From: Closterium sp. NIES-65
Taxonomy: Eukaryota > Streptophyta > Zygnematophyceae > Desmidiales > Closteriaceae
Length of the DNA: 64,000 bases
Assembly: GCA_948144175.1 (NCBI GenBank)
Contig: CANXME010000532.1
Location: 1,059,001 to 1,123,000, forward strand
Reading direction: 5' to 3'
The notes under the pieces were generated by a model, which worked only from the letters and a program-made list of their open reading frames with translations, was not told the DNA's origin and did no database searches. The translations under genes and the position numbers were made by a program. Below, piece by piece: positions 13,899 through 40,240 of this stretch (position 1 is its first letter; every line of letters starts with the position of its first letter).

Positions 13899-16800
13899 TC
13901 ACCAAACGAATCTATTAAGAAGGCTCACTTCATCGTCCTCACATGAGGGAACAATGTGTACGAGACTGAGAATGCAGTCGACATCAATCACTGCAAAATC
14001 ATCCTTGCCCTCTGTGGGTAGAAGGCGCTTGCATCCCGTTGACGGGCATAGTCGCTTGTCCTCGGTGTAATACTCCACGTATGCTCCGCGCCTCAGCTCC
14101 CCATCTTTGTTGTAGTGAAACAGGACAAGACAACGGCCGTACCAGGGGGACCCCTTCCCTGCAGGGTTGATTGCAACAGATGAGAAGTTCTTCTCGCCCG
14201 GGCTAGCCTTGACAAAATGCCCCCTTGACGTCCATTCCATCTTGTCGTGAGGCGGAATCGCAAGTGCCGTGTGCACCTGAAACCACGAGCATGAACCAAG
14301 ACAATGTGAAAGCAGCGAAAGAGGCGGTGGAGAGCATAGCGAAAGGGGGAAATTGGCAAAGGGCTGGAGTGGGTGGAAAAGCAGGTTGGAGAGGAGGAAG
14401 GGGGGCTGGAGTGGGTGGAAAGCATTTTGGAGAGGGGGAAGGGGGGCTGGAGTGGGTGGAAAGCATGCAGGAGAGGGGGAAAGGGGGCTGGAGTGGGTGG
14501 AAAGCATGCAGGAGAGGGGGAAGGGGGGCTGGAGTGGGTGGAAAGCATTTTGGAGAGGGGGAAGGGGGGCTGGAGTGGGTGGAAAGCATGCAGGAGAGGG
14601 GGAAGGGGGGCTGGAGTGGGTGGAAAAGCATGCAGGAGAGGGGGAAGGGGGGCTGGAGTGGGTGGAAAGCATGCAGGAGAGGGGGAAGGGGGGCTGGAGT
14701 GGGTGGAAAGCATGCAGGAGAGGGGGAGGGGGGGCTGGAGTGGGTGGAAAGCATGCAGGAGAGGGGGAAGGGGGCCTGGAGTGGGTGGAAAGCATGCAGG
14801 AGAGGGGGAAGGGGGGCTGGAGTGGGTGGAAAGCATGCAGGAGAGAGGGAAGGAGGGCTGGAGTGAGTGGAAAGCATGCAGGAGAGGGGGAAGGGGGGCT
14901 GGAGTGGGTGGAAAGCATGCAGGAGAGGGGGAAGGGGGGCTGGAGTGAGTGGAAAGCATGCAGGAGAGGGGGAAGGGGGGCTGGAGTGGGTGGAAAGCAT
15001 GCAGGAGAGGGGGAAGTGCGGCTGGAGTGAGTGGAAAGCATGCAGGAGAGGGGGAAGGGGGGCTGGAGTGGGTGGAAAGCATGCAGGAGAGGGGGAAGTG
15101 GGGCTGGAGTGGGTGGAAAGCATGCAGGAGAGGGGGAAGGGGGGCTGGAGTGGGTGGAAAGCATGCAGGAGAGGGGGAAGGGGGGCTGGAGTGAGTGGAA
15201 AGCATGCAGGAGAGGGGGAAGGGGGGCTGGAGTGGGTGGAAAGCATGCAGGAGAGGGGGAAGTGCGGCTGGAGTGAGTGGAAAGCATGCAGGAGAGGGGG
15301 AAGGGGGGCTAAAGTGGGTGGAAAGCATGCAGGAGAGGGGGAAGGGGGGCTGGAGTGGGTGGAAAGCATGCAGGAGAGGGGGAAGTGCGGCTGGAGTGAG
15401 TGGAAAGCATGCAGGAGAGGGGGAAGGGGGGCTGGAGTGGGTGGAAAGCATGCAGGAGAGGGGGAAGGGGGGCTGGAGTGGGTGGAAAGCATGCAGGAGA
15501 GGGGGAAGGGGGGCTGGAGTGGGTGGAAAGCATGCAGGAGAGGGGGAAGTGCGGCTGGAGTGAGTGGAAAGCATGCAGGAGAGGGGGAAGGGGGGCTGGA
15601 GTGGGTGGAAAGCATGCAGGAGAGGGGGAAGGGGGGCTGGAGTGGGTGGAAAGCATGCAGGAGAGGGGGAAGTAGGGCTGGAGTGGGTGGAAAGCATGCA
15701 GGAGAGGGGGAATGGGGGCTGGAGTGGGTGGAAAGCATGCAGGAGAGGGGGAAGTGGGGCTGGAGTGGGTGGAAAGCATGCAGGAGAGGGGGAAGGGGGG
15801 CTGGAGTGGGTGGAAAGCATGCAGGAGAGGGGGAAGGGGGGCTGGAGTGGGTGGAAAGCATGCAGGAGAGGGGGAAGTGGGGCTGGAGTGGGTGGAGAGC
15901 ATGCAGGAGAGGGGGAAGGGGGGCTGGAGTGGGTGGAAAGCATGCAGGAGAGGGGGAATGGGGGCTGGAGTGGGTGGAAAGCATGCAGGAGAGGGGGAAT
16001 GGGGGCTAAGGTGGGTGGAAAGCATGCAGGAGAGGGGGAAGGGGGGCTGGAGTGGGTGGAAAGCATGCAGGAGAGGGGGAAGTGGGGCTGGTGTGGGTGG
16101 AAAGCATGCAGGAGAGGGGGAGGGGGGCCTGGAGTGGGTGGAAAGCATGCAGGAGAGGGGGAAGTGGGGCTGGAGTGGGTGGAAAGCATGCAGGAGAGGG
16201 GGAATGGGGGCTGGAGTGGGTGGAAAGCATGCAGGAGAGGGGGAAGGGGGGCTAAAGTGGGTGGAAAGCATGCAGGAGAGGGGGAAGTGGGGCTGGAGTG
16301 GGTGGAGAGCATGCAGGAGAGGGGGAAGGGGGGCTGGAGTGGGTGGAAAGCATGCAGGAGAGGGGGAATGGGGGCTGGAGTGGGTGGAAAGCATGCAGGA
16401 GAGGGGGAATGGGGGCTAAGGTGGGTGGAAAGCATGCAGGAGAGGGGGAAGGGGGGCTGGAGTGGGTGGAAAGCATGCAGGAGAGGGGGAAGTGGGGCTG
16501 GTGTGGGTGGAAAGCATGCAGGAGAGGGGGAGGGGGGGCTGGAGTGGGTGGAAAGCATGCAGGAGAGGGGGAAGTGGGGCTGGAGTGGGTGGAAAGCATG
16601 CAGGAGAGGGGGAATGGGGGCTGGAGTGGGTGGAAAGCATGCAGGAGAGGGGGAAGGGGGGCTAAAGTGGGTGGAAAGCATGCAGGAGAGGGGGAAGGGG
16701 GGCTGGAGTGGGTGGAAAGCATGCAGGAGAGGGGGAAGTGCGGCTGGAGTGAGTGGAAAGCATGCAGGAGAGGGGGAAGGGGGGCTGGAGTGGGTGGAAA

Positions 16801-19800
16801 GCATGCAGGAGAGGGGGAATGGGGGCTGGAGTGGGTGGAAAGCATGCAGGAGAGGGGGAAGTGGGGCTGGAGTGGGTGGAAAGCATGCAGGAGAGGGGGA
16901 AGGGGGGCTGGAGTGGGTGGAAAGCATGCAGGAGAGGGGGAAGGGGGGCTGGAGTGGGTGGAAAGCATGCAGGAGAGGGGGAAGTGGGGCTGGAGTGGGT
17001 GGGGAGCATGCAGGAGAGGGGGAAGGGGGGCTGGAGTGGGTGGAAAGCATGCAGGAGAGGGGGAATGGGGGCTGGAGTGGGTGGAAAGCATGCAGGAGAG
17101 GGGGAATGGGGGCTAAGGTGGGTGGAAAGCATGCAGGAGAGGGGGAAGGGGGGCTGGAGTGGGTGGAAAGCTTGCAGGAGAGGGGGAAGTGGGGCTGGTG
17201 TGGGTGGAAAGCATGCAGGAGAGGGGGAGGGGGGGCTGGAGTGGGTGGAAAGCATGCAGGAGAGGGGGAAGTGGGGCTGGAGTGGGTGGAAAGCATGCAG
17301 GAGAGGGGGAATGGGGGCTGGAGTGGGTGGAAAGCATGCAGGAGAGGGGGAAGGGGGGCTAAAGTGGGTGGAAAGCATGCAGGAGAGGGGGAAGGGGGGC
17401 TGGAGTGGGTGGAAAGCATGCAGGAGAGGGGGAAGTGCGGCTGGAGTGAGTGGAAAGCATGCAGGAGAGGGGGAAGGGGGGCTGGAGTGGGTGGAAAGCA
17501 TGCAGGAGAGGGGGAAGGGGGGCTGGAGTGGGTGGAAAGCATGCAGGAGAGGGGGAAGGGGGGCTGGAGTGGGTGGAAAGCATGCAGGAGAGGGGGAAGG
17601 GGGGCTGGAGTGGGTGGAAAGCATGCAGGAGAGGGGGAAGTGGGGCTGGAGTGGGTGGAAAGCATGCAGGAGAGGGGGAAGGGGGGCTGGAGTGGGTGGA
17701 AAGCATGCAGGAGAGGGGGAAGGGGGGCTGGAGTGGGTGGAAAGCATGCAGGAGAGGGGGAAGTGGGGCTGGAGTGGGTGGAGAGCATGCAGGAGAGGGG
17801 GAAGGGGGGCTGGAGTGGGTGGAAATCATGCAGGAGAGGGGGAATGGGGGCTGGAGTGGGTGGAAAGCATGCAGGAGAGGGGGAATGGGGGCTAAGGTGG
17901 GTGGAAAGCATGCAGGAGAGGGGGAAGGGGGGCTGGAGTGGGTGGAAAGCATGCAGGAGAGGGGGAAGTGGGGCTGGAGTGGGTGGAAAGCATGCAGGAG
18001 AGGGGGAGGGGGGGCTGGAGTGGGTGGAAAGCATGCAGGAGAGGGGGAAGTGGGGCTGGAGTGGGTGGAAAGCATGCAGGAGAGGGGGAATGGGGGCTGG
18101 AGTGGGTGGAAAGCATGCAGGAGAGGGGGAAGGGGGGCTAAAGTGGGTGGAAAGCATGCAGGAGAGGGGGAAGGGGGGCTGGAGTGGGTGGAGAGCATGC
18201 AGGAGAGGGGGAAGTGCGGCTGGAGTGAGTGGAAAGCATGCAGGAGAGGGGGAAGGGGGGCTGGAGTGGGTGGAAAGCATGCAGGAGAGGGGGAAGGGGG
18301 GCTGGAGTGGGTGGAAAGCATGCAGGAGAGGGGGAAGGGGGGCTGGAGTGGGTGGAAAGCATGCAGGAGAGGGGGAAGTGGGGCTGGAGTGGGTGGAAAG
18401 CATGCAGGAGAGGGAGAAGGGGGGCTGGAGTGGGTGGAAAGCATGCAGGAGAGGGGGAAGTGGGGCTGGAGTGGGTGGAAAGCATGCAGGAGAGGGGGAA
18501 GTGGGGCTGGAGTGGGTGGAGAGCATGCAGGAGAGGGGGAAGGGGGGCTGGAGTGGGTGGAAAGCATGCAGGAGAGGGGGAAGGGGGGCTGGAGTGGGTG
18601 GAAAGCATGCAGGAGAGGGGGAAGTGGGGCTGGAGTGGGTGGAAAGCATGCAGGAGAGGGGGAAGGGGGGCTGGAGTGGGTGGAAAGCATGCAGGAGAGG
18701 GGGAAGGGGGGCTGGAGTGGGTGGAAAGCATGCAGGAGAGGGGGAAGTGGGGCTGGAGTGGGTGGAGAGCATGCAGGAGAGGGGGAAGGGGGGCTGGAGT
18801 GGGTGGAAATCATGCAGGAGAGGGGGAATGGGGGCTGGAGTGGGTGGAAAGCATGCAGGAGAGGGGGAATGGGGGCTAAGGTGGGTGGAAAGCATGCAGG
18901 AGAGGGGGAAGGGGGGCTGGAGTGGGTGGAAAGCATGCAGGAGAGGGGGAAGTGGGGCTGGAGTGGGTGGAAAGCATGCAGGAGAGGGGGAGGGGGGGCT
19001 GGAGTGGGTGGAAAGCATGCAGGAGAGGGGGAAGTGGGGCTGGAGTGGGTGGAAAGCATGCAGGAGAGGGGGAATGGGGGCTGGAGTGGGTGGAAAGCAT
19101 GCAGGAGAGGGGGAAGGGGGGCTAAAGTGGGTGGAAAGCATGCAGGAGAGGGGGAAGGGGGGCTGGAGTGGGTGGAGAGCATGCAGGAGAGGGGGAAGTG
19201 CGGCTGGAGTGAGTGGAAAGCATGCAGGAGAGGGGGAAGGGGGGCTGGAGTGGGTGGAAAGCATGCAGGAGAGGGGGAAGGGGGGCTGGAGTGGGTGGAA
19301 AGCATGCAGGAGAGGGGGAAGGGGGGCTGGAGTGGGTGGAAAGCATGCAGGAGAGGGGGAAGTGGGGCTGGAGTGGGTGGAAAGCATGCAGGAGAGGGAG
19401 AAGGGGGGCTGGAGTGGGTGGAAAGCATGCAGGAGAGGGGGAAGGGGGGCTGGAGTTGGTGGAAAGCATGCAGGAGAGGGGGAAGTGGGGCTGGAGTGGG
19501 TGGAGAGCATGCAGGAGAGGGGGAAGGGGGGCTGGAGTGGGTGGAAAGCATGCAGGAGAGGGGGAATGGGGGCTGGAGTGGGTGGAAAGCATGCAGGAGA
19601 GGGGGAATGGGGGCTAAGGTGGGTGGAAAGCTTGCAGGAGAGGGGGAAGGGGGGCTGGAGTGGGTGGAAAGCATGCAGGAGAGGGGGAAGTGGGGCTGGA
19701 GTGGGTGGAAAGCATGCAGGAGAGGGGGAGGGGGGGCTGGAGTGGGTGGAAAGCATGCAGGAGAGGGGGAAGTGGGGCTGGAGTGGGTGGAAAGCATGCA

Positions 19801-22800
19801 GGAGAGGGGGAATGGGGGCTGGAGTGGGTGGAAAGCATGCAGGAGAGGGGGAAGGGGGGCTAAAGTGGGTGGAAAGCATGCAGGAGAGGGGGAAGGGGGG
19901 CTGGAGTGGGTGGAAAGCATGCAGGAGAGGGGGAATGGGGGCTAAGGTGGGTGGAAAGCATGCAGGAGAGGGGGAAGGGGGGCTGGAGTGGGTGGAAAGC
20001 ATGCAGGAGAGGGGGAAGTGGGGCTGGAGTGGGTGGAAAGCATGCAGGAGAGGGGTAGGGGGGGCTGGAGTGGGTGGAAAGCATGCAGGAGAGGGGGAAG
20101 TGGGGCTGGAGTGGGTGGAAAGCATGCAGGAGAGGGGGAATGGGGGCTGGAGTGGGTGGAAAGCATGCAGGAGAGGGGGAAGGGGGGCTAAAGTGGGTGG
20201 AAAGCATGCAGGAGAGGGGGAAGGGGGGCTGGAGTGGGTGGAGAGCATGCAGGAGAGGGGGAAGTGCGGCTGGAGTGAGTGGAAAGCATGCAGGAGAGGG
20301 GGAAGGGGGGCTGGAGTGGGTGGAAAGCATGCAGGAGAGGGTGAAGGGGGGCTGGAGTGGGTGGAAAGCATGCAGGAGAGGGGGAAGGGGGGCTGGAGTG
20401 GGTGGAAAGCATGCAGGAGAGGGGGAAGTGGGGCTGGAGTGGGTGGAAAGCATGCAGGAGAGGGAGAAGGGGGGCTGGAGTGGGTGGAAAGCATGCAGGA
20501 GAGGGGGAAGGGGGGCTGGAGTTGGTGGAAAGCATGCAGGAGAGGGGGAAGTGGGGCTGGAGTGGGTGGAGAGCATGCAGGAGAGGGGGAAGGGGGGCTG
20601 GAGTGGGTGGAAAGCATGCAGGAGAGGGGGAATGGGGGCTGGAGTGGGTGGAAAGCATGCAGGAGAGGGGGAATGGGGGCTAAGGTGGGTGGAAAGCTTG
20701 CAGGAGAGGGGGAATGGGGGCTGGAGTGGGTGGAAAGCATGCAGGAGAGGGGGAAGTGGGGCTGGAGTGGGTGGAAAGCATGCAGGAGAGGGGGAGGGGG
20801 GGCTGGAGTGGGTGGAAAGCATGCAGGAGAGGGGGAAGTGGGGCTGGAGTGGGTGGAAAGCATGCAGGAGAGGGGGAATGGGGGCTGGAGTGGGTGGAAA
20901 GCATGCAGGAGAGGGGGAAGGGGGGCTAAAGTGGGTGGAAAGCATGCAGGAGAGGGGGAAGGGGGGCTGGAGTGGGTGGAAAGCATGCAGGAGAGGGGGA
21001 AGTGCGGCTGGAGTGAGTGGAAAGCATGCAGGAGAGGGGGAAGGGGGGCTGGAGTGGGTGGAAAGCATGCAGGAGAGGGGGAAGGGGGGCTGGAGTGGGT
21101 GGAAAGCATGCAGGAGAGGGGGAAGTGGGGCTGGAGTGGGTGGAAAGCATGCAGGAGAGGGGGAATGGGGGCTGGAGTGGGTGGAAAGCATGCAGGAGAG
21201 GGGGAATGAGGGCTAAGGTGGGTGGAAAGCATGCAGGAGAGGGGGAAGGGGGGCTGGAGTGGGTGGAAAGCATGCAGGAGAGGGGGAAGTGGGGGCAGTG
21301 AGAAAAAATGGCATATCCATACGACCGGGAATGCACCTGCAAAATTTGCGTGTTGATGCCTGCCCGTCTGAGTCGCAGAACCATCGCACTCATGGCGGGT
21401 TCACCAACAGTCAAGACGTAGCTCCGAAACACTGAGTCGGTGATGTCCCCCAGGACCATCTTCTTGTGGGTCTTAGTAAGCACCCTCTGGCCAGCCAGGC
21501 ATGCCTGTCACCGTGGAGAGGAGAGGGTTGGTATAGGGAGGGGGAGGGTTGTATGGTGAGTCCTTTTGGAGGGAGGAGGAGGGGGGGGGGGGGATAGGGG
21601 ATGGATGCGAGGTGTAGGCAAAGAAGGGAAAGGCCACGAAGTGGGAATGGGTGTGGGGGAAAGGGGGAAAGGTTGTGGGGACGAAGAAGGTTATGGGGGG
21701 GTAGGAATCGATGACTTTGGTTAGGTTGGTCCTTCATGTCATTGCCAACTCATGCAGAGAGCATGGAAACAGAAGTGCGGGCAAAGAGACGAGCGAACAG
21801 AATGTGGCACAGAGCAGGGCAGACACAGAAGTGAACAAATCTGGGAAACAGTGAAGGGAACAGAGCGGGGCACATAGCAGGGCAGACACAGAAGTGAACA
21901 AATCAGGGAAAAAGTGAAGGGAACAGAGCGGGGCACATAGCAGGGCAGACACAGAAGTGAACGAATCAGGGAAACGATGAAGGGAACAGAGCGGGGCACA
22001 GAGGTGGGCAGACACAGATGTGAACAAATCAGGGAAACGGTGAAGGGAACAGAGCAGGGCACAGAGCAGGGCAGACACAGAACGGAACATGGCAGGGTAA
22101 CAGCGCAGGGAACAGAGCAGGGAAACAGAACAGGGTACCGAGTAGGGGAGACACAGCATGGAACATAGCAGGGTAACAGAGCGGATAACAAAGAAGGGGA
22201 AATGACGAGGGGAACGGAGCAGTGTGAGAGAGCAAGAGAGCCGAGCAGGGAAAAAGAGCATGGGGGGAGAGCATGAGACCCGGGCAGCGAAACAGAGCAG
22301 GAAAGAGCATGAGAACCGAGCAGGGAAAAAGGGCAGGGGAGGGAGCATGAGAACCGAGCAGGGAAACAGGGCAGGGGAGAGAGCATGAGAACCGAGCTCG
22401 GGCAAACTGAACATGGCACAGAGCAGGGCAGACACATAAGGGAGCATAGCAGGGAAACTGAAGGGAATACAACAGGCCACAAAGGAGGGCAGACACAGAA
22501 CGGAATATGCCAAAGGATAACACTGCAGGGAACAGAGCGGGGAAGACACAGTAGGGAACACAGCTGGGAAATAGAGCAGATAACAAAGAAGGGGAAATGA
22601 CTAGAGGAACAGGGCAGGGAGAGAGAGAAGGAGAACCGAGCAGGGAAACAGAGCAGGGGGAGAGAGCAAGAGAACCGAGCAGGGAAACAGAGCAGCGGAA
22701 CAGAGGAGGGGAACCGAGCAAGAGAACGGAGCATGGCATCACTTCAGGAGATCACAGCATGGGATTAAAATAGGGAAACTTAGCAGACGACGGGGTGCAG

Positions 22801-25800
22801 GGGAACAGAGCAGGTTCGTGAAACTCACCTCTTTCATCGAGGTCTCGTACGTGCTGTCCCCTCCGGCCTCCCGCGCGAGTTGCCTAACCACCGCATGCTC
22901 CAGGTGTTTCTGGACGATTCGATCTTCAACATTCTTCCAGTTCGTGCCACGTGAAGGACGCTTCACAGTGGTCTTGTGGGAGTGCTCGTAGCAGTTTGAC
23001 GAGTACTCGGCAGGGATCCCCCTCATACGGATTGTTGATGGGAGGTGAACGAGAAGATGAATCTTAACAATTTTCCACTTTGACTTCTGCTTAGGGAAAG
23101 CGACACGAGGAGCCTTCACCATCCTGGAGAAAATTTAGATACAAGGCATGCAGTTAAGACGGGGAATGCAGGCCGGGAACGGAGAAACGGGATGCGGGAG
23201 GGGGAGTGAGGAAGCAGACATCGAAAACAGAAACACGGAAGGAGGGAGCACGGAGGTGGGTTATGGAGGGACAGCGATGCAGTGCAGAGGGAGAAGATGG
23301 GCCTGGGAAACCACATAACAGACGGACTTATTACTTGATGGTGGCGTCTTTCATCCGTTCCAGAGATTCGTCGGTGTGGTACTCAGCGCGGATGAACTCC
23401 TTGTACCACTCGACCATCTTGACAATGGCCGTGCGGATATCATCTTGTCCTGGGAGGTTGATGATGAGGGGCAGGACCTGCATCATCGCCCGATGCTCTG
23501 CAGCTGAAAAGCAGGCAGTGGATGTGAAGTAGGCCCACGCCGAAGGAAGACGTAGCACGGAAGCTGGTGTGGCCTCCTTCAAAATCTTGTATCGCCTAGG
23601 CGTGAGTAATAGTTAGTCAAAGCACGGAAAGCAAGCACGGAGGGGTGTAGCATGAAGCAGGGCGCGGAAAGCAAGCACGGAGGGGAGTAGCATGAAGCAG
23701 GGCGCGGAAAGCAAGCACGGAGGGGAGTAGCATGAAGCAGGGCGCGGAAAGCAAGCACGGAGGGGAGTAGCATGAAGCAAGGCGCGGAACAACTCACTCC
23801 AGAAGAATCTTCCGTTCCCTCGGGGTCAGCTTCTTCACCAGGCACTTCATGGCATGCAGCCATATGCCTTGCTCCCAGATGTGCATGATGTCCGGGGGCA
23901 CAGCAAGGTACGTGTTTCCCCAGAGAGTTTTTGCGAATTCCCAGTCCCACAAAAGGCTCTGCGTCGGGGGTCAAGGGCACAAACTCACTATGGCGGGTCA
24001 GGATAATAAATATGAACAGCAAGATGCAGATCGGAGTAGGTTTTCGGGCACACTAGCCACAGCAGTATATGGTGGATACGGAGGGAAACCATATGAGAAC
24101 CACAAGGATGCACGCGGAGCAAGCTGGGCAAGGCGCACCTTCACAAAGTGTGTAGAGGACTTCTTCTTCACCGCCTTCAGCTCCTTTTTGGTCTTTGCGG
24201 CTTTCATCTCCTTGTGAAAATCCTTCTGACCCTTGACAGTTCTAAGGACAATGGTGTCTTCCTGCTTCTTTTTGGTTTCCGCAGATTCCTTCAGACCTTC
24301 GACATTTCTGGGGATAATGGTCTCATCCTGCTCATCCGGGCGCTTCTTATCAGTTGGCTGTTGAGTCAACTCAAAGTTCAACTCATCCAGGCCCTCCTTT
24401 TCAGCCAAGCACAACGAGCACGGATGGTGTGAGTTGCATGCCATCGTACAGGTGATCTTAGAAGACTCCGGGTGATCGGCCACCCATGAATAAAGGAGCG
24501 TGAATGCACTATACTGCACCCCGGCACTGTCTTCCACCTTCACACCGCCCCTGCACAGCCGCCAGGATGAGGGGTAAAGCAGGGGGGGGTATGGCAAGGA
24601 TGGGAGACCATGTTAGATATGTCAGTGATGGTGTGAGCATGGGTTGCTGTAAGCAAGCAGATGAAGGACGGTTAGGAGGAGGGGGACAGCAAGCAGGGAT
24701 GGTTTCAACGGCAGGAGACGGTGGTACGGGAGGAACCCGAATGGTATTAGGTGAAGCATGGTGGCTGGGAGCAGAGTACTTTCGACTGAATCCTACGTCG
24801 TGGCGCGCATGCGAAAGAAGAACAGAGGAGAAGGGGGGTCAAAAAGGGAGGGGAGTGTGTATTAGACAGGCAATGAAAATAAGTAGGGTAGTGTGGTGGA
24901 TTCTGGAGAGTACAAGGGATGCGCGCCTTTGGGCGAGAGTAGCAGTGTCTCACCCTGAAAGATGTGAAGCCGCCTTCAAATCTCGAATCATGATCTCTGC
25001 AGCGTCCTGGAACACTCGAACCTTCTCTTCTGGCGAGAGGTCAGCTGGGATGTTAGGCAGGAGCCCGAGAAGCTCAGTGCCTCCTTCAAGCCACCTAGCC
25101 CATTCAGGAATGTTCCCAAAGGACAACAGAAATGGGTGGGCAGATTGGCGCCCGTTGTACGATAGATTGGTCTGGTCCGAAAACAAAATGAGAGCTATAA
25201 CTATGCCAAACTTCCGCACCCTTTCCTGCCACAGTGATGATAAAGGGAAGGAAGAACGTATTGGATCCTAGGTTTCAATGCTCGTGTCCAACGCGACATG
25301 AGATGGCGTGGAACTTACCCAAGCCTCGAGCATCCAATCCGTGTTTGCAGGGGTACTGTAGCGGCGAACCCCATCCACCTTCCACTCTTGAGGCATGATG
25401 CTGAATCCCTTGACAGCCGACATCTTCTTGAACATGGACTGAAGGAGCTGATGGTGATAATTATGGAAACAATGACGGAAAACAAAAGCGTAGGATTGAT
25501 GGTTCCATTTGGACTGATGGTTTAGTCGGTCTCAACAAACACATTCCAGGGTGACAAACGTGACCCAGCACGCATGAATACACTCACAGTTATCGCGTTA
25601 CGGCGCTTGAAGGTGAGAAACCCAACCTCGTGATCCACCTCGATCTCCTCGACGATCCATTCATTCTCCGCTCCAAGGTCAAAGCTGTTCTCGTACTTCT
25701 CCAGGTCCCTGTAGCTGTTCCAATCGTCCAGCTGCTTTGGATCTAATTTCGGATGTCTAACTAACTGTATTGTGTCGTTTATCGCCCCGTTGGTAAGGCC

Positions 25801-26361: not shown

Positions 26362-26925
26362 GATTGGCCATTGGTCATCGAGTGTCAGTAGTGGGATTGC
26401 AGTTGGTTAGGGTTTGTGATGTGCAGCTCGAAGTGTTCGGTCCTCCTGTTTATTGGTGCGCGACAACCGTGAAGATTGGCGAGAGCGCCATGCGACTCCC
26501 ATACTCAACATCTCTTGGTGTAACTGTTTTCGCGCACATAAACTGCTTACTCGTCGCTGCACCTTGACGAGGTTTTGTACCCAACTGCAAACAAGTTGGC
26601 GAGGGTCATTTCCGCTTGCGACATGGACCTGACATCATATTCGCGTACACGCCAATTGTGTGTCAGAAAAAAACAAGCCAAACAATGTCATTGGAGCAAG
26701 GAATTCTGTCAGACCACCCAACACTGTTCACCAAGTATGAACAAGCCATTCGTTGTCGACGCATGGGAGCAGGGAATCACAAACTTGACGAACGAAGGGC
26801 AAGGGCGTGTGGGTCCTTCTTCAGGAACTACAGTATTTCCTTAGACTTTCCGTTGGCTGGGCCACGGAATGTCGACCCTCACCTAAGGCACGATCCTGCT
26901 CAAGCTGAGTTTGTTATCTCAAGAT
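26362..26925. promoter_or_regulatory. Head-to-head intergenic region between transposase and Ulp1 genes
   Basis: 564 bp separate the transposase ATG (26361, minus) from the chosen Ulp1 ATG (26926, plus), so the region probably serves as a bidirectional promoter. An open plus-strand frame from 26616 (with ATG also at 26685) could instead be a 5' exon of the Ulp1 gene or its leader. It is out of frame with the catalytic exon and would need splicing. No clear core promoter motif was recognised. Confidence 0.4.
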
Positions 26926-29900
26926 ATGGAGGAGAAGGGCATACCCAAGTTAGCGCGATGTAGTTTCCGGCACATGCGCATGCCATCCCCGTTCCGGGGA
27001 TCCCTTGAAATCAAGCCCTCAGATTACCGCACGCTGAAAAACGAGCAGTGGGTCAGTGGCACGATTATCGAGTGGCTCTCATCGTGAGTGGCTCTGTGTT
27101 GAACACATAGCAAACTGATTTGTTGACCCTTGTTTTTAGTTTCTCACGAGCTCCACCGACTTTGTATATTTTCACGTCGATCCTGCAGTATGTTACACTA
27201 CGAGTACGGATATGACAATGCGTCGTGGCTTTGCACATCGCCTTATTTCTGGACACTCGTAGCACGCCCGGGGTCGAAGAGGATCACAAGGCAGGCCTAT
27301 GGACTAGACATCTTGTCGTTTAAGCACGTTCTTGTTCCGATTAACAAGAAGTAAGTGGTAGGGTCTTTTTATTCATGTGTTGAACGTAAACATGTCCTGC
27401 AAAATAACGATTTTGGATGTCTCGATTACATGGCAGTGCGCACTGGAGTCTTGTTGTTATCAAAATTACCCATGCTCCGGGATCCCTTATCCCGATCAAG
27501 TGTGACCTGTGGCATGCGGACTCATATTCAACTCACGTCGACATTGATGGACCATTGAGAAAGTGAGAAATGTGATGTGCTGCGTATGAAACACTGTTGT
27601 TCTCGACCGATGTTAACAAGCAGTACGTCTTAATGCGCAGGTATTTGATGAATCAAGCAATGCAGCGCTACGCATGGGTCACGGAGACAGAAGCAAAAGC
27701 GTGGGCAGCAGCGATTCAGTTAAACACCATTATGGTATGTGAATTCACGGCCCGTGCAAAAAGGAGGATTGGTGTGGGACAGGCCGCTCATGGACAGGCA
27801 TTGGATGCGCGGATGAGTAGGGGAAGGGGGAGGTGCGTGCTGCGCATGGACTGGCATGGGATGATGAGTAGGGGAAGGGGGAGTTGCGTGCGGCGCATGG
27901 ACAGGCATGGGATGATGAGTAGGGGAAGGGGGGGTTGCGTGCTGCGCATGGACAGGCATGGGATGATGAGTAGGGGAAGGGGGAGTTGCGTGCGGCGCAT
28001 GGACAGGCATGGGATGATGAGTAGGGGAAGGGGGGGTTGCGTGCTGCGCATGGACAGGCATGGGATGATGAGTAGGGGAAGGGGGAGTTGCATGCTGCGC
28101 ATGGACAGGCATGGGATGATGAGTAGGGGAAGGGGGAGTTGCGTGCTGCGCATGGACAGGCATGGGATGATGAGTAGGGGAAGGGGGAGTTGCATGCTGC
28201 GCATGGACGGGCATGGGATGATGAGTAGGGGAAGGGGGAGTTGCGTGTGGCGCATGGACAGGCATGGGATGATGAGTAGGGGAAGGGGGGGTTGCGTGCT
28301 GCGCATGGACAGGCATGGGATGATGAGTAGGGGAAGGGGGAGTTGCATGCTGCGCATGGACAAGCATGGGATGATGAGTAGGGGAAGGGGGAGTTGCGTG
28401 CTGCGCATGGACAGGCATGGGATGATGAGTAGGGGAAGGGGGAGTTGCGTGCTGCGCATGCACAGGCATGGGATGATGAGTAGGGGAAGGGGGAGTTGCA
28501 TGCTGCGCATGGACAGGCATGGGATGATGAGTAGGGGAAGGGGGAGTTGCGTGTGGCGCATGGACAGGCATGGGATGATGAGTAGGGGAAGGGGGAGTTG
28601 CATGCTGCGCATGGACAGGCATGGGATGATGAGTAGGGGAAGGGGGGGTTGCGTGCTGCGCATGGACAGGCATGGGATGATGAGTAGGGGAAGGGGGAGT
28701 TGCATGCTGCGCATGGACAGGCATGGGATGATGAGTAGGGGAAGGGGGAGCTGCGTGCTGCGCATGGACAGGCATGGGATGATGAGTAGGGGAAGGGGGG
28801 GTTGCGTGCTGCGCATGGACAGGCATGGGATGATGAGTAGGGGAAGGGGGAGTTGCGTGTGGCGCATGGACAGGCATGGGATGATGAGTAGGGGAAGGGG
28901 GAGTTGCATGCTGCGCATGGACAGGCATGGGATGATGAGTAGGGGAAGGGGGAGTTGCGTGCGGCGCATGGACAGGCATGGGATGATGAGTAGGGGAAGG
29001 GGGGGTTGCGTGCTGCGCATGGACAGGCATGGGATGATGAGTAGGGGAAGGGGGAGTTGCATGCTGCGCATGGACAGGCATGGGATGATGAGTAGGGGAA
29101 GGGGGGGTTGCGTGCGGCGCATGGACAGGCATGGGATGATGAGTAGGGGAAGGGGGGGTTGCGTGCGGCGCATGGACAGGCATGGGATGATGAGTAGGGG
29201 AAGGGGGGGTTGCGTGCGGCGCATGGACAGGCATGGGATGATGAGTAGGGGAAGGGGGGGTTGCGTGCTGCGCATGCACAGGCATGGGATGATGAGTAGG
29301 GGAAGGGGGAGTTGCGTGCGGCGCATGGACAGGCATGGGATGATGAGTAGGGGAAGGGGGGGTTGCGTGCTGCGCATGGACAGGCATGGGATGATGAGTA
29401 GGGGAAGGGGGAGTTGCGTGCTGCGCATGGACAGGCATGGGATGATGAGTAGGGGAAGGGGGGGTTGCGTGCTGCGCATGGACAGGCATGGGATGATGAG
29501 TAGGGGAAGGGGGAGTTGCATGCTGCGCATGGACAGGCATGGGATGATGAGTAGGGGAAGGGGGAGTTGCGTGCTGCGCATGGACAGGCATGGGATGATG
29601 AGTAGGGGAAGGGGGAGTTGCATGCTGCGCATGGACAGGCATGGGATGCGCGGATGAGTACGGGAGGAGGTGGGGGTGGGGGGGGGGGGGGGGGGGCAAG
29701 GGGGCTGAAAGCAGCTCGTGACTAAGCCTTAAGAACCACCTGATACTTGTCCTACCGCAGGTGCGTCAGCAGGACAACGAGAATGACTGCGGCGTTTATG
29801 TGATGCGTGTCATTCATACGCTTGTCGAGACCAACTTTGACAGCTTGAATGCGTGTGGCTTGGCCGGGACGCCAAGACAGTGGAGGCGCCAATATCGTCA

Positions 29901-29961
29901 CGATTTGGCTAGGTGGTCCTGTGTCTATGACAATGCATGTGGGTTGATCCAGGCTGACTGA
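26926..29961 (+). CDS. Ulp1-type (C48) cysteine protease, SUMO-protease-like, five exons
   Basis: Exons: 26926-27083, 27189-27350, 27437-27562, 27641-27734, 29761-29961. All are GT-AG with matching phases, for about 246 residues. The order matches Ulp1/SENP catalytic domains: a substrate-entry segment (LKNEQWVSGTIIEWL); DILSFKHVLVPIN leading into HWSLVVI with the catalytic His; HADS with the probable catalytic Asp; and QQDNENDCGVYVMR with the catalytic Cys and the preceding Gln region. Ulp1 enzymes cleave SUMO from conjugates or process its precursor in the nucleus. The start is the ATG that opens the catalytic frame; an upstream exon is possible. Ulp1 genes are common cargo of plant CMC and Mutator transposons, and this one sits head-to-head with a transposase gene. 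The last intron contains a 51-bp array. Confidence 0.87.
27811..29660. repeat. 51-bp minisatellite, about 36 units, in the last intron of the Ulp1 gene
   Basis: The unit begins GATGAGTAGGGGAAGGGGGA, continues GTTGCGTGCTGCGCATGGAC and closes with AGGCATGGGAT. Since 51 is a multiple of three and the unit has no stop, the plus strand gives a 686-codon frame repeating a 17-residue unit (MMSRGRGSCVLRMDRHG), with long minus-strand frames as well. The array lies wholly between the donor at 27735 and the acceptor at 29760, so it is intronic. A G homopolymer region follows at about 29666-29694. Confidence 0.97.
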
Positions 29962-31423
29962 TGCCCTTAAGCCTGCTTGGTGTTGGTTATTGACATGCAT
30001 TAGTACCGGACGATCTGGTGTATCGTACTGCTCGACGCTTGATGGAAACTGGCATGACAGTGCGGTAATTGATTTGCACTAGATGGTAAGCTCTAAGCCG
30101 AGCATTACATAGTGTCAGTGAATACACTCAGAACACAACATAGTGGTTGGGGTCTTGCTGAACTTGATGAGTAGTCAGATGAGCTGAATGCGGGGCAGGC
30201 ATCATGAACAACCTCCTAGAGGCATGGCAGGCGACCATGATAGTATTACAACATCACATGTGTTGGGAATATAAACACATGACTTACACAAAGCCGACTC
30301 ATGGCACAACTGACAACAGTTCAAATGCAACCTCAACGAGAATCTTCCTACTGCAGCGCCCTATATAAGTTGCTATGTATCGGCCCATGAACGTAATAAT
30401 GTCGACACAATGCAGTTTCTGTCTTCTCCAGCGCTGTAACATCTACGCGACAAACCAGCTGTTGATGTGAACCTAACTGTGCTTGCTCTCAACAATTGCA
30501 CAATGTTTTTTGAAGGTTGCTAGGCGTGTGAACACTGGTATAGTCATTGTACGGTGAGTCACGCCAAGTAGTCACCCTAAATTTGAATATGAAAATGCAT
30601 AGAAGTATACCAGTGTGCGATTAGGCGGCTGGAATGAGACTGTTAGTTTAGGTGTGCAGGATTATTCTTTCTACTCACCCTATGATTACCTTGATTGAAG
30701 CAAGACTTGGTGAACCTTACAATATTACTGAACTCTGTCACAATCTTATCGCATCAATCCTGTCACATCCTCGGTACAAAGAGCGGTGCCACGAAATCGA
30801 AGTTTCAGCGCAACCACTCGGGGTATTATCGAACCGCGATGTCTTGTATCTATCACGGCTCCAAACGCACATGTGTGTGCCGACAACGCGCGGCGCGGTT
30901 TGCTGCTGTCACATTGCGTTTTTTTTTTTTTTGGTGTGCGGCAAGGCTTGGTTCAGTTCCCGTACTCACGCGTGCAAATACTTACTAGTACTAGTCTCGC
31001 ATTTACAGTGCCGATCAGGCATTGTGGGCGCTCGAACGTTCTAGCCCAGGGAGGCTGCTGCAATTTAGGATTTGAAATATTGCCCCATTGACAGCGCCTT
31101 CCTTGCAACCTCAAGGGCAGCTAAACTATTGCGCTGCACCAAACACCACCACCCGACGTGGGGCCACCTGGTAATGCGTTACAGGAACAAGCATCTTCAT
31201 GCCGATTCCCATGCTGGGAGATGAGACCACGATATGCTCCACGTTCGAAGCACCTAGTTCGTCTTGCTGGTAGCCGTTCGGTTCTCGTCACGATACCCCT
31301 ACGGTAGGCACGTCATGCATTTACGGTAGTAGTATTGGTAGTAAATGTTGATGTTCCCTCTGGCACTCGATGCAAAGTGAGAAGATGTCAGTGGTAGCAC
31401 GTAATAGCCGTCACGTAGCTGTT

Positions 31424-31665
31424 CTCGTAATAGGCTCATCCATCTTTGGCGCTGCGGTGCAGTTTTCGTAGTAGGCACGTCCTACATTGGCGTGGCGGCC
31501 GGTTCTCATAGTAGGCTCCTCCTGTTTTGGCGCAGCGGTCTGTTCTCGTAGTAGGCTCGTCCTGTTTTGGCGCGGCGGTCTGTTCTCGTAGTCGTCTCGT
31601 CCTGTTTTGGTGCGGCGGTCTGTTCTCGTAGTAGCCTCGTCCTGCTCTGGCGAGGCCGTGATGTT
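31424..31665. repeat. 40-bp tandem repeat, about six units
   Basis: Units of GTAGGCTCGTCCTGTTTTGG plus CGCGGCGGTCTGTTCTCGTA, exactly 40 bp apart at 31511, 31551, 31591 and 31631, with diverged copies to the left. It lies upstream of the acidic-protein gene. Confidence 0.92.
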
Positions 31666-31669
31666 CTCT

Positions 31670-31732
31670 GACGGCGCGTCCAGGCATGGCGCGTCCAGCA
31701 ATGACGCGTCCAGCATGGCGCGTCCAGCGGCA
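31670..31732. repeat. GGCGCGTCCAGCAAT short tandem repeat
   Basis: Four imperfect copies of a roughly 14-15 bp unit GCGCGTCCAGCAATG immediately after the 40-bp array. Confidence 0.8.
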
Positions 31733-31893
31733 GTTCTAGCTTGCTCGATTTTCGTCGGCGCGTTTCGCAGGCACGTAGTGCGATTGCGCGCTGCTGTTCC
31801 TTGCGTCTCCAACACCTATTTATGGGATACTTGATACTTAGAAACAGCTCACTATTGTAACCATTAAGCTTGTCTAGCGGAACTGATAGATAG

Positions 31894-34800
31894 ATGGCAG
31901 ACATCATCGTCTCTGAACAGGCCAATGCTAGTGCGCTCCTCGGTAGCGCCGCTACAGCTTTACAACCTTTGGGTCCCATGAAAACCGACGCGGAACAGAA
32001 GGGGCACGACAAGATGACGCCTCACGATACCTCCCAGCTAGTTGTGCGGTATCGTCGGAAAAACATACTTCCTGCACGCGATGCCAAGGTGGAATCGGAA
32101 GGGGCATCTTCATCGGATAGTGAGCAATCTGAAGAAGAGGCCTACGATGGCAAGGTTAGACGCGGCGGTTCACAAGGGCGGAGGAACGGTCGAAAGCTGA
32201 AGCCGTTGGACCAGTGCAAACCTGCTACAGGGAGGAAAGGTACGCTATGAACTTTTATCCAGCTTTTTCAAGTTTGTATGTCTTAAAGTTGCTCGTTAAT
32301 TACTTGGATGTGTTCGCACCCAATCCAGAGAGGTGCTGCCCTCCTATTAACTGAGCGTATCATCCTTACTTCGTGCGTGTTGTAGGTACCCTTGCTGGAG
32401 CCAAGAAAATGAAAAGAGAAAGACAAGACGCGCCTGGTGCAACAGGACTTGTGGAAGATGTAGATGACAAGGAGCAACTGCCAGAGAAAGGGCATGAGCG
32501 TGGGGATGAGCGTGATGGAGAGCGTGAGGGCAGGCGTGAGGGAGGGCTTGAGGGCAGGCGTGAAGGCAGGCGTGAGGGCAGGCGGGAGGGAGAGCGTGAG
32601 GCTGAGCGTGAGGGAGAGCGTGAGGGAGAGCGTGATATGAAGCATGATGCGTCTTTTCCCTCTACTCCAGCAGGTGTTCGTGCGGCCGATGCACACGATG
32701 TTCGAGGGCATGAGGAGGGTGGGAGGGAGAGCCGTGGCGCTGAGCATGAAGATCAGAGGGGGGTGTCTGGGAGGGTGAAGGCACGGTGCAGAAAGGCTGG
32801 AAAGAAGGCCGTTGCTGAGGTCGAATCTTCTGATGGAGAAGATAGTTCCGAGGAGGAATCAGGGAGTTCATCCGGGAGCGAGGAGAAGTATGATGAGGAA
32901 GAGGACGAGAGTGATGACGCTGAAACTGGGTCCGGGAGTAATGACGACGGTAGGAGAGGGGGGAGGGCACGAGGAGCGCGCAACCACCAGTATAGCGGAA
33001 AGCGTGGTCATGCAACCGGTGGTAAGGCTGGTAGTGGCTATAAACGGCAGAGACGTAGAGAGTGTGCTCAAGGAAAGCGAGCAGATACTGAGGGTTACAC
33101 CCAGCGGCGTCGTAAGGAGCGTCCTGTTGTGAGACAGGACCTTGGCTTCTACAATGAGATGAGGATCATGGTGAACTCGGATGATGCTGATCCGTCGAAT
33201 CGTCGGGAGAACGTTCGGATGAAACGGGCAGCAACCAACGATCGGTATGCTGCCCTTGCTTCCACCTCAGGGTTGGGGAAGAGAGCATCTAGATTTCAAG
33301 ATCGGAGTGTGCGTGACAACGCTGGCCAGCAGCATGACAACACGCACAATCCAGCCGGTGGTAGTGACGATCCGGCCTGTGGTGGGGGGCTGGGGGCGGA
33401 AGATGGTGAGGCGGGTGGTGTTGGAGATTGGTTCAATGATGGCAGGAAAGTTGGACACTTTGACCCAGCAACTCCGCCCCCGTTCGCATCGGCAAGAGGC
33501 AATTCCCCGCTCAACGCTAGTGGAGTGCCCATCCTTCCCTCGATCAATTCTCCTAATGAATCCATGCAGCAACTCTTCCAGGCTTTGCAGGAAGCTAATC
33601 GGCAGATTGCCGAGCTAAAGGCCGGTCGTGGACCTTCGGTGGACCGGGAGGGAAATGGGACGCAAATCCCGCCGCTTACCTCGATATCCAGTGAACAACC
33701 TGAGCCGCCAGAAACGCCGGGCGCTGTGGCGGAGAGCGCTGTACAAGGCACTCCCATCACCAGGAGGCATGGGATGCCAAACGCGACTAATTTGAAGGTA
33801 AGTGCCACCAATTTCTCCTACCCATTGCCACACCTGACTCGCTGGCTTGCTCATTATATGGTTTTGTTTGACCAATGGTGCATTTTCATTCTCTTTCTCC
33901 AGTTGTCTAGGTTTTCCCACTCTCTGGTCTCATTCTCTGCAATGACTCGCTCACATTCCCACTCTCTGGTTTCCTTCTCTGCAGTGATTCATTCTCATCC
34001 CACCCTCTGGGCTCATTCTCTGCAGTGATTCATTCTCATTCCCACTCTCTGATTTCCTTCTCTGCAGTGATTCATTCTCATCTCACCCTCTGGTCTCATT
34101 CTCTGCAGTGACTCACACTCTCTGGTTTCCTTCTCTGCAGTGATTCATTCTCATCCCACCCTCTGGTCTCATTCTCTGCAGTGACTCCCACTCTCTGGTT
34201 TCCTTCTTTGCAGTGACTCATTCACATTCCCACTCTCTGGTTTCCTTCTCTGCAGTGATTCCTTCTCAACCCACCCTCTGGTATCATTCTCTGCAGTGAC
34301 TCCCACTCTATGGTTTCCTTCTCTGCAGTGATTCCTTCTCATCCCACCCTCTGGTCTCATTCTATGCAGTGACTCCCACTCTCTGGTTTCCTTCTCTGCA
34401 GTGATTCCTTCTCATCCCACCCTCTGGTATCATTCTCTGCAGTGAATCCCACTCTATGGTTTCCTTCTCTGCAGTGATTCATTCTCATCCCACCCTCTGG
34501 TCTCATTCTCTGCAGTGACTCCCACTCTCTGGTTTCCTTCTCTGCAGTGATTCATTCTCATCCCACCCTCTGGTCTCATTCTCTGCAGTGACTCCCACTC
34601 TCTGGTTTCCTTCTCTGCAGTGACTCATTCAAATTCCCACTCTATGGTTTCCTTCTCTGCAGTGATTCATTCTCATCCCACCCTCTGGTCTCATTCTCTG
34701 CAGTGACTCCCACTCTCTGGTTTCCTTCTCTGCAGTGATTCATTCTCATCCCACCCTCTGGTCTCATTCTCTGCAGTGACTCCCACTCTCTGGTTTCCTT

Positions 34801-37332
34801 CTCTGCAGTGACTTATTCACATTCCCACTCTATGGTTTCCTTCTCTGCAGTGATTCCTTCTCATCCCACCCTCTGGTATCATTCTCTGCAGTGACTCCCA
34901 CTCTCTGGTTTCCTTCTCTGCAGTGATTCTTTCTAATCTCACCCTCTGGTCTCATTCTCTGCAGTGACTCCCACTCTCTGATTTCCTTCTATGCAGTGAC
35001 TCATTCACATTCCCAATCTCTGGTTTCCTTCTCTGCAGTGATTCCTTCTCATCCCACCCTCTGGTCTCATTCTCTGCAGTGACTCCCACTCTCTGGTTTC
35101 CTTCTCTGCAGTGATTCATTCTCATCCCACCCTCTGGTCTCATTCTCTGCAGTGACTCCCACTCTCTGGTTTCCTTCTCTGCAGTGACTCATTCACATTC
35201 CCACTCTCTGGTTTCCTTCTCTGCAGTGATTCCTTCTCATCCCACCCTCTGGTATCATTCTCTGCAGTGACTCCCACTCTATGGTTTCCCTCTCTGCAGT
35301 GATTCATTCTCATCCCACCCTCTGGTCTCATTCTCTGCAGTGACTCCCACTCTCTGGTTTCCTTCTCTGCAGTGATTCATTCTCATCCCACCCTCTGGTC
35401 TCATTCTCTGCAGTGACTCCCACTCTCTGGTTTCCTTCTCTGCAGTGACTCATTCACATTCCCACTCTCTGGTTTCCTTCTCTGCAGTGATTCCTTCTCA
35501 TCCCACCCTCTGGTATCATTCTCTGCAGTGACTCCCACTCTATGGTTTCCTTCTCTGCAGTGATTCCTTCTCATCCCACCCTCTGGTATCATTCTCTGCA
35601 GTGACTCCCACTCTCTGGTTTCCTTCTCTGCAGTGATTCATTCTCATCCCACCCTCTGGTCGCATTCCACGCATGACTCCCACTCTCTGGTTTCCTTCTA
35701 TGCACTGATTCATTCTCATTCCCACCCTCTGGTCCCATTCTCTGCAGTGACTCATTCACACTCCCACTCTCTGGTTTCCCTCTCTGCAGTGATTCATTCT
35801 CATCCCACCCTCTGGTCTCATTCTATGCAGTGACATATACTCATTCCCAATTCCCCACATTCCCATTCTTTGGTTTACCCTACATTCTCATTTTAAACAG
35901 CTGTACATGGAAGAAGCAAGGAAGCGCATGTGTATGGAAGCTGAGGACCATCTTGTCACGTTCTACCCAAGCTTTGAGAAGCGGATTCTTGTTTTGCATG
36001 AAGTCATTTCTGAGAATTATGTGGTTCCATTGATATTGCTGAAGGAGGCCATGGCAGATAAAACACGGAGGGATGCATTCAAGCGCGTGTATACGCAGTG
36101 GAAGAACGAGCGCGGGTTTTACATCAAACGGACCGTGCTCGAGGGGTTGGGGGTTCCTATGAGTGGCTTGCGGGCAGCGGAAATCCACATCGACACTGAG
36201 CTCAAGGAGGATCTCTGGGGGGAGTATGGCCCGAGTGAGTAAACACCTGCCTGACCTTTTCCCCCACCCTCCCCCCCTCCCCCTTGTTTCACCATCTCAG
36301 CCCTAGCACCCGTTTCTTGCAACACCCCATATTCTGTACTCCATAGCTTGGCATTTCCTTTACATAGGCCGTTGTAGAAACCTGTGATTCGCCAGCCCAT
36401 CCACCCTCTTCCCTTTTCACACCCCACCCCTTGAACCACCTTCGTTCGAGTGTGTTGCAGGTGCGGACGCCCAACTGAGCACATGGGGAAATGCTGAGGT
36501 TACTGATCTCCCGTTCGGCAACGAGATCTTCTTCAACGCAGCAATGGACGCCTTCGGTGAATTTGCCGTGGGGAACGACATATGCTTGAAGGCGTATCAT
36601 ATTGCTTGGACTATCTTGGTGGTGAGTGGCTTGTGAGGGTCCTTTTACTTGTTTCTCATCCCACACTTTTCTCCTTGGTAAACCCGTGCCATCCCGTGTA
36701 AACCTTAAACCCCCGTGTTTCCACCTCCCTCTCAGGTGCTTCTTGAAACCTTGGTATCCACCTGCCCTCTGGAGTTGCGCCCACTCTGGGTTCACGCTTT
36801 CACTCATGGCCTTACGTTGTTTATATTTTTCACCAATCCCCTCACGACCATGCAGTACCCAGCAGTATCCTTCCCCTCCCGTGTTTCCGAACACTCTTTG
36901 GTTTCCTCTTCCTTTCAGAGGCTGCCCCACTCCTCTATCACCTTTCATGCTCACACTCATGGCGTACTTCACTGCATGTTGTGCTTGCCCCACATGATTC
37001 CGACCTCTCACACTTATCACGCTTGAATCTGTCCATGCTCCCCTTTCTTGACAATGCAGATAGACTACGGCTTGTCGAAGGTCAAGAAGTCGACAACGAA
37101 CCTCACAAACTCCCACCGAAAGAACACGCGGTGGGTGGCAAGCATCCGCAGGGCGGTGAAGCGGGCGGTGACGGATCATTTCAGCCAGGTGAACCCTGTC
37201 TACGACCCATGGATGAAGGGGTTTAGGTGGGGGAATTTTGGCTTGTTTGTCCATGAGTCGGGGTTTGAGGAGTATAGGCCAAGACCACAACCCCGCAATC
37301 CGACAAGGAGGGTGGCGTCAGTGCATGTCTAG
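31894..37332 (+). CDS. Unrecognised protein with acidic, disordered N-terminal half; five exons
   Basis: Exons: 31894-32239, 32386-33797, 35901-36234, 36461-36621, 37060-37332. All are GT-AG with matching phases, for about 841 residues. Residues about 1-330 are rich in E, D, K, R and S, with a repeat of EGRREGRREGERE type and acidic runs (SSEEESGSSSGSEEKYDEEE), then basic patches (RGARNHQYSGKRG). The middle is Pro/Ser-rich with a short possible coiled coil (MQQLFQALQEANRQIAELKA). The last three exons look globular and conserved (YPSFEKRILVLHEVI, WVASIRRAVKRAVTDHF, KGFRWGNFGLFVHE). I do not recognise the family. Composition suggests a nuclear, chromatin- or DNA-associated protein. It lies downstream of the transposase-Ulp1 pair and could be a third transposon gene or a host gene. 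Confidence 0.65.
33925..35845 (+). repeat. Array of splice-acceptor-like modules (41 + 32 bp, 73-bp pair) in an intron of the acidic-protein gene
   Basis: Module A (41 bp) is GTGATTCATTCTCATCCCAC followed by CCTCTGGTCTCATTCTCTGCA. Module B (32 bp) is GTGACTCCCACTCTCTGG followed by TTTCCTTCTCTGCA. A 42-bp variant starts GTGACTCATTCACATTCCC. Every module ends in a pyrimidine run plus CTGCAG on the sense strand, giving roughly 50 copies of a consensus-like 3' splice site in about 1.9 kb. The acceptor actually used (35899-35900, TTTTAAACAG) is outside the array. Confidence 0.95.
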
Positions 37333-40225: not shown

Positions 40226-40240
40226 GTAGTAACAACATGA

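Follow-up and report, generated by a model that had tools for sequence, protein, structure and literature searches.

Do three neighbouring genes in a repeat-rich stretch of DNA belong to a single mobile element, and if so, what kind of element is it and where are its limits? The question is raised by a 64,000-nucleotide stretch of contig CANXME010000532.1 (positions 1,059,001 to 1,123,000; hereafter the window), in which a Plavaka-like transposase gene, a gene for an Ulp1-type protease and a third gene lie next to one another. A first-pass annotation had proposed that the three form a single mobile unit, about 15-27 kb long, in a green-lineage genome, possibly an undescribed Plavaka lineage partnered by a SUMO protease, for which it reported neither terminal inverted repeats nor a target duplication. 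We conclude, with a probability of roughly 0.94, that one DNA transposon of the Plavaka lineage, a member of the CMCT group with PlavakaB-type ends, carries all three genes within the limits given in Table 1. This transposon is full-length, would move by cut-and-paste and has probably been mobile recently.

Both of the features reported as lacking exist. An inverted-repeat scan over 8-46 kb of the window, which preceded any look at published PlavakaB ends, returned 25 inverted pairs, and among those of at least 18 bp only one is fully complementary, an 18-bp pair (13395-13412 and 40869-40886) that encloses all three genes. It is also the longest perfect pair between the flanks 8000-13898 and 37333-46000, where the next measures 12 bp; in a control of 300 dinucleotide shuffles of both flanks, the longest perfect pair was 16 bp and was reached once. 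PlavakaB elements are described as ending in CATCA..TGATG with target duplications of 2 or 3 bp (PMC12730594). If the pair is read as PlavakaB, its 18 bp consist of the 12-bp terminus CATCACAAAAAT and six palindromic target bases, ATAC-TA, of which TA is duplicated, and the predicted empty site is therefore ATACTAGTAT. Two element-free relatives of the site carry exactly this sequence with one TA, in agreement with the prediction. One of them matches the joined flanks without the element at 93% (505 positions) and the other at 82% (545 positions); both are paralogous flank copies, not alleles. Flank-only matches were found at C532:1388832 in the left-end search and at C532:1388732 and C532:1420123 in the right-end search. 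The earlier interval, 13899 to 37332, reaches only from stop codon to stop codon and has to be extended on both sides.

Paralogues were searched for in the host assembly (874 Mb in 2,400 contigs). The DNA searches with the left end, the third gene and the right end cover the best 40 of 57, 40 of 56 and 40 of 65 candidates, respectively, and all genome counts are lower bounds. The alignment of paralogue edges, which had been suggested as a way to the termini, gives a clear answer: the alignments stop at the element ends, in agreement with the two empty sites. Among the matches listed, 37 of the 41 non-self rows of the left-end query start at query position 97-105, with the terminus at 101, and 36 of the 40 of the right-end query end at 539-546, with the terminus at 541. 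Of the loci read, 28 of 30 on the left have CATCA in place and all 30 on the right have TGATG, out of 42 and 41 listed matches. Nineteen end pairs lie on one contig in the right order, with both ends in place in 17, and the 2-bp flanks match in 13 of these 17. One matching pair is uninformative because it lies inside a GAT microsatellite; among the 16 informative pairs, 12 show an exact 2-bp duplication (TA and TG twice each; AA, GG, AG, AT, GT, TT, CG and AC), and the chance of at least 12 in 16 is 5e-12. The proposed single unit is retained, and its proposed size becomes 27,480 bp in the window; over 16 of the 19 end pairs, element length ranges from about 18 to 45 kb, leaving out C1788, which has an altered left end, and two pairs on C1914 (64 and 75 kb). 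A near-identical copy on C1596 (transposase stretch 100%, Ulp1 99%, third gene 99%, both ends 99%) suggests recent movement. On C1914 (L037, L038 and L063), the matching ends in the GAT microsatellite are 75 kb apart, and the genes between them are spread out, perhaps because of later insertions.

The question whether the Ulp1 and third genes travel with the transposase can be addressed by counting their co-occurrence. Second pieces of one copy and flank-only rows were dropped from the counts, which retain 36 of 50 rows for the transposase, 32 of 36 for Ulp1, 40 of 50 for the third gene, 38 of 42 for the left end and 37 of 41 for the right end. Ulp1 adjoins 32 of the 36 listed transposase loci, at about 2.0-2.5 kb between query starts and in the same relative orientation, and all 32 listed Ulp1 loci of the window subfamily adjoin a transposase. 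The full set of left end, Ulp1, third gene and right end is present at 19 of the 36 transposase loci, one of which is the 75-kb locus on C1914. Transposase paralogues elsewhere thus do carry the other two genes, the opposite of what the first-pass annotation had named as a refutation. With one end pair enclosing all three genes and the set recurring in paralogues, the genes form one mobile unit as proposed. Six other loci (C863, C1760, C867, C2112, C2 and C2045) have the third gene and right end with near-identical right flanks and no listed transposase or Ulp1; they are a derivative or a duplicated segment.

The nine-exon transposase gene is unbroken, as first annotated: each of its eight introns has GT-AG borders, and the exons join into an open frame. 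Its start is more likely to be the methionine at 26175, because the leader that extends to 26361 shows lower conservation than exon 1, and 5 of the 12 paralogues compared have it out of frame. With this start, the head-to-head arrangement with Ulp1 holds and the distance does not, since the two start codons are about 750 bp apart rather than 564 bp. A profile search with the joined exons returned Pfam Plavaka (PF18759) at an E-value of 7.7e-20 and 71.8 bits against a cut-off of 26.3, and this was the sole Pfam family returned at a limit of E 5. Candidate catalytic residues, picked by eye, follow the CMCT-type order D, D, CSLC, HLLVH, E. An N-terminal C2H2-type finger is kept in 12 of 13 copies compared, the window included, and is broken in L007. 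Viral contigs searched for transposase relatives gave none. Plavaka-like transposases about 39-43% identical occur, among the matches listed, at C708:918419, C1808:338656, C2090:2187054 and other places; several are in long single open frames of up to 778 amino acids, apparently an intron-poor lineage.

The head-to-head gene encodes an Ulp1-type protease, for which SUMO cleavage is predicted. Its product matches Pfam C48 (PF02902, E 1.9e-10), with SENP2 as the best PDB match (E 8.9e-10), and all three expected catalytic residues are present, H109 aligned with SENP2, C190 aligned with Ulp2 and D135 assigned by position only. For the third gene, the five-exon model was reproduced and the family assignment stays blank, as the full 841-amino-acid protein has no match in Pfam, nor does its C-terminal part in Pfam, NCBIfam or PDB; viral contigs searched for its relatives gave none. 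The N-terminal part is charged and of low complexity with an acidic stretch, and the C-terminal 255 amino acids are conserved.

Table 1. Coordinates of the transposon and its parts in the window (aa, amino acids).
Feature	Positions	Strand	Basis
Whole transposon, 27,480 bp	13401..40880	.	12-bp terminal inverted repeats; paralogue alignments ending at both edges; two empty sites
Left terminal inverted repeat, CATCACAAAAAT	13401..13412	+	Inverted-repeat scan; agrees with PlavakaB terminus CATCA
Right terminal inverted repeat, CATCACAAAAAT on minus strand	40869..40880	-	Inverted-repeat scan
TA target site duplication, left copy, within target ATAC-TA-GTAT	13399..13400	.	Single TA at empty sites L039 and L107
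TA target site duplication, right copy	40881..40882	.	End sequence; empty sites
Plavaka transposase, 884 aa	13899..26175	-	GT-AG introns, open spliced frame, Pfam Plavaka, conservation
Transposase exons 1-5	26175-25588, 25438-25319, 25225-24954, 24550-24139, 23958-23798	-	Splice signals; open frame
Transposase exons 6-9	23595-23335, 23123-22829, 21504-21337, 14276-13899	-	Splice signals; open frame
N-terminal C2H2-type finger, C-x2-C-x12-H-x3-H	26098..26160	-	Sequence
FSDQTNL, proposed first catalytic D (aa 253)	25163..25183	-	By eye; inside Pfam Plavaka match
VADHPES, proposed second catalytic D (aa 352)	24463..24483	-	By eye; inside Pfam Plavaka match
CSLC, C(2)C motif	24409..24420	-	Sequence; CMCT hallmark according to PMC12730594
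HLLVH, H(3)H motif	23045..23059	-	Sequence; H(3-4)H is a CMCT hallmark according to PMC12730594
NCYEHSHK, proposed catalytic E (aa 651)	22973..22996	-	By eye; outside Pfam-matched stretch
Ulp1 (C48) cysteine protease, 246 aa, 5 exons	26926..29961	+	Pfam C48, PDB SENP2, triad
Ulp1 exons	26926-27083, 27189-27350, 27437-27562, 27641-27734, 29761-29961	+	Gene model
Third gene, 841 aa, 5 exons	31894..37332	+	Gene model, conservation
Third-gene exons	31894-32239, 32386-33797, 35901-36234, 36461-36621, 37060-37332	+	Gene model
41-bp minisatellite, 169 copies, in transposase intron 8	14361..21296	.	Tandem repeat
51-bp minisatellite, 36 copies, in Ulp1 intron 4	27812..29648	.	Tandem repeat
Pyrimidine-rich repeat array in third-gene intron 2	33914..35834	.	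Tandem repeat
26/52-bp purine-rich array adjoining right end	37395..40163	.	Tandem repeat

The minisatellites belong to the element as a standing component. At 27 of the 28 left loci inspected, an array of the same or nearly the same 41-bp unit begins about 960 bp from the terminus (in L030 it is displaced), and each of the 30 right loci inspected has a 26/52/78-bp array related to the right-end array of the window. Differences in array length are probably the main source of the variation in element length.

Placement within the CMCT group, whose hallmarks are C(2)C and H(3-4)H between the second D and the E of the DDE triad (PMC12730594), can be addressed by comparing ends, duplication and domains. 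The window element has a Plavaka domain, CATCA..TGATG termini, a 2-bp duplication and an ordered DDE/C(2)C/H(3)H set (by eye), all as in PlavakaB. It differs from the other classes as they are defined in PMC12730594: PlavakaA has TGT..ACA termini, CACTA/EnSpm has CAC..GTG termini with a 3-bp duplication, and the KDZ elements have duplications of 8 bp (Zisupton) or 7 bp (Kyakuja). That the element belongs instead to CACTA/EnSpm or to a new CMCT branch, with PlavakaB-like ends for another reason, is unlikely. Fungal EnSpm families with Plavaka-like transposases have been reported (PMC12730594), and plant CACTA elements with Ulp1 are known (PMC2528002); both the ends with their 2-bp duplication and the exclusive Pfam match argue against CACTA/EnSpm.

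Among known systems, fungal PlavakaB elements (PMC12730594) share the transposase type, the termini, the 2-3 bp duplications and the C(2)C and H(3-4)H motifs. Some of them carry a TET/JBP dioxygenase, and the main text of that paper never uses the term Ulp1, whereas the present element carries Ulp1 and the third protein in a green-lineage host. The CACTA elements of grapevine and rice with an ULP domain (PMC2528002) are likewise CMCT-group transposons with Ulp1 in a green host; however, the rice proteins hold both Tnp2 and ULP1, whereas here Ulp1 is a separate head-to-head gene next to a Plavaka transposase, and the ends and duplication are different. The KAONASHI/Vandal Mutator-like elements (MULEs) are also plant DNA transposons with a conserved Ulp1 of unclear precise role, but they are of Mutator type, lack terminal inverted repeats and have Ulp1 linked to VANC genes (PMC13317346). 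In Ginger1, another DDE transposon allied with an Ulp1 or OTU protease, Ulp1 is instead a C-terminal domain of a Gypsy-integrase-like transposase, and the families tabled are from animals; repair signalling is offered there as one idea for its role (PMC2836005). EnSpm-Plavaka of the green alga Auxenochlorella (PMC12633428) is a Plavaka-type element in a green host. The Plavaka-associated giant repeats of Amoebidium (PMC11244446) are also large, up to 50 kb, but they consist of tandem gene clusters with tyrosine recombinases, and Ulp1 is not mentioned in the main text of the paper.

The green-lineage host that had been assumed is borne out by the rbcL gene, which occurs many times in the assembly and whose product is nearest to green-type Rubisco chains in PDB, with 1069 bits to 9chz, 1050 to 4hhh and 1032 to 1gk8, the last of which is from Chlamydomonas. 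Within the green lineage, the sequence points to a host that is probably a streptophyte.

Diverged relatives bear on the age of the partnership. The protein searches cover the best 150 of 771 matches for Ulp1, 150 of 1869 for the transposase and 149 of 615 for the third protein, again as lower bounds, and the counts of diverged lineages use 50, 104 and 56 listed rows, respectively. Of the 50 diverged Ulp1 places (55-61% identity), 46 have a diverged transposase in head-to-head orientation no more than 25 kb away, against a chance expectation of 0.07; in 33 of the 46 the distance is 3.4-3.6 kb. Chance gene neighbours were considered and rejected. Diverged third genes are head-to-head with a diverged transposase within 30 kb in 48 of 56 cases. 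Among the 71 listed transposases at 56-75% identity, Ulp1 is listed for 46 and the third gene for 23; of the 33 transposases of the 76% set, 26 have a listed third gene. The one member of the latter set that was read (C1227) has Ulp1 on the third-gene side, as four collinear blocks of 37-59% identity (tblastn E 3e-47). The three-gene order is thus seen in three lineages, although not every copy among the matches listed has every gene.

Recent transduplication, in which a single transposon copy would have picked up Ulp1 and the third gene from the host as passengers that play no part in transposition, is very improbable in the light of these data, and we reject this explanation. Plant MULE and CACTA elements do pick up ULP domains (PMC2528002, PMC13317346), and the transposase copies on C863, C2024 and C735 have no listed Ulp1 at the DNA level. 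However, the pairing is found with Ulp1 of only 55-61% or 37-59% identity and with third proteins of 46-53% identity among the matches listed, and because the pair occurs in lineages with strongly diverged Ulp1 and third protein, the partnership is old. Pairwise Nei-Gojobori ratios of nonsynonymous to synonymous substitution rates (dN/dS), which are below 1 in all three genes for the copies compared, also argue against recent capture. For exons 1-4 of Ulp1, with 11 chosen pairs among 15 intact sequences, the ratios against the window are 0.27-0.55 (six pairs), the remaining five pairs give 0.17-0.27, and the introns are more diverged than the exons in all six comparisons. Exons 3-5 of the third gene gave 0.08-0.24 against the window in eight of nine comparisons and 0.51 in the ninth, with 0.08 for the most diverged sequence. 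For the transposase from the methionine at 26175 to exon 4, nine of ten values are 0.07-0.28, and a near-identical pair with few changes gave 0.43; these supersede the 0.23-0.44 obtained in six comparisons with the leader included.

The same low ratios could be taken to mean that the family was once mobile and its genes are now domesticated for the host. This is scarcely credible, as the copies are spread over many different sites and have kept their ends and duplications, as in a mobile family, and active transposons are also expected to be under purifying selection. That three neighbouring genes or nested smaller transposons merely adjoin in a repeat-rich region, with copia elements and a long interspersed nuclear element (LINE) in the surroundings and long satellite arrays inside and between the genes, can be dismissed, since a single end pair encloses the three genes, the set recurs at more than half of the listed transposase loci (19 of 36) and the two empty sites lack the whole 27.5 kb.

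Several observations weigh against the single three-gene transposon that we favour. Listed Ulp1 is missing at four of the 36 transposase loci (C863, C2024, C735 and C2291); for C2291, which lacks it in the DNA-level list, the last Ulp1 exon was found by protein search. No listed transposase lies within 45 kb of 11 of the 40 listed third genes, nine of which have a right end (one of these nine, C624, begins at a contig edge), and 9 of 38 listed left ends are likewise without a listed transposase. Both partners are listed for only 19 of the 71 transposases of the 56-75% set, and Ulp1 for only 1 of the 33 of the 76% set. Four of the 16 end pairs lack a duplication (C1722, C2291, C2377 and C1771); C2291, which has its left flank in common with C1596, may be a chimera. 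Left flanks are common to C1596, C2291, C1218, C863 and C1795, and because several loci share flanks, the loci are not independent and overcount insertions; some may be duplicated segments or haplotigs. In six copies (C1819, C1692, C1904, C1771, C2377 and C1197), the transposase stretch and third gene are 96-98% identical to the window and Ulp1 only 77-78%; these discordant identities mean that parts of the element have different histories, which would most simply be explained by block exchange through recombination between subfamilies. Broken sequences account for 6 of 21 Ulp1, 3 of 13 third-gene and 2 of 13 transposase sequences, and in the alignment the acceptor of exon 2 or exon 4 is not AG in 3 of 12 transposase paralogues (L004, L008 and L104). 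The PF18759 match spans only model positions 44-258 of 325, and the gene models of all three genes are based on open frames, splice signals and conservation. Apart from the inverted repeat and a shared 10-mer, the two ends show no repeated motif of the TnpA type, and the SUMO step and the role of the third protein are ones that we infer.

How might the parts of this transposon work together? The transposase would bind the 12-bp ends, excise the element and join it to a target cut with a 2-bp stagger. The divergent transposase and Ulp1 genes may have the region of about 0.75 kb between them as a common control region, so that the protease would be made together with the transposase. Ulp1 could then strip SUMO or a SUMO-like tag from the transposase, the third protein, or host silencing or repair factors, and in this way license transposition or blunt silencing; this proposal is about as likely as not. 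It is less likely than not that the third protein is an accessory factor of the element's own, which by analogy may bind the repeat arrays of the subterminal regions and introns as TnpA would; the model for such a role is TnpA of En/Spm. Doubtful as a whole is the more ambitious picture of an ancient green-lineage Plavaka branch, apart from the fungal ones, with three obligate parts, a transposase, a co-expressed Ulp1 and an accessory protein, in which Ulp1 would strip SUMO from the transposition complex or host silencing proteins and the accessory protein would recognise the minisatellites built into its introns and subterminal stretches.

Ulp1 in other DNA transposons (plant CACTA and MULE elements, PMC2528002 and PMC13317346; Ginger1, PMC2836005) is already known, and EnSpm-Plavaka has been mentioned from a green alga (PMC12633428). 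New here are the lasting partnership of a Plavaka lineage with Ulp1, a third protein that has no family match, and minisatellite arrays as a regular component of the element. A literature search found no paper pairing Plavaka with Ulp1, although the Plavaka papers were not each checked for it. Ulp1 domains recur in unrelated plant and animal DNA transposons, where their precise role is unclear (PMC13317346, PMC2836005). The present family offers precise ends, many levels of divergence, broken and intact copies and a separate protease gene, which makes the need for a SUMO protease in transposition directly testable. Plavaka, mostly treated in fungi, also gains a large green-lineage form with several genes, and a third protein family is named that stayed with the transposase across diverged lineages.

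Other features surround the transposon in the window. To its right, on the minus strand, lie a copia-type retrotransposon in several frames with RVT_2, integrase and gag (42656-48464) and a second copia-type gag polyprotein reading frame (51348-53330). They are followed on the plus strand by a LINE with endonuclease/exonuclease/phosphatase and reverse transcriptase domains (56171-60266) and by a reading frame for a peptidase inhibitor I9 domain that may be a subtilase propeptide (60690-61592). A 181-bp tandem repeat of about nine copies is located outside the left end (10590-12247), and a 28-bp inverted repeat (89%) around 293 bp at 41587-41935 is possibly a small non-autonomous element.

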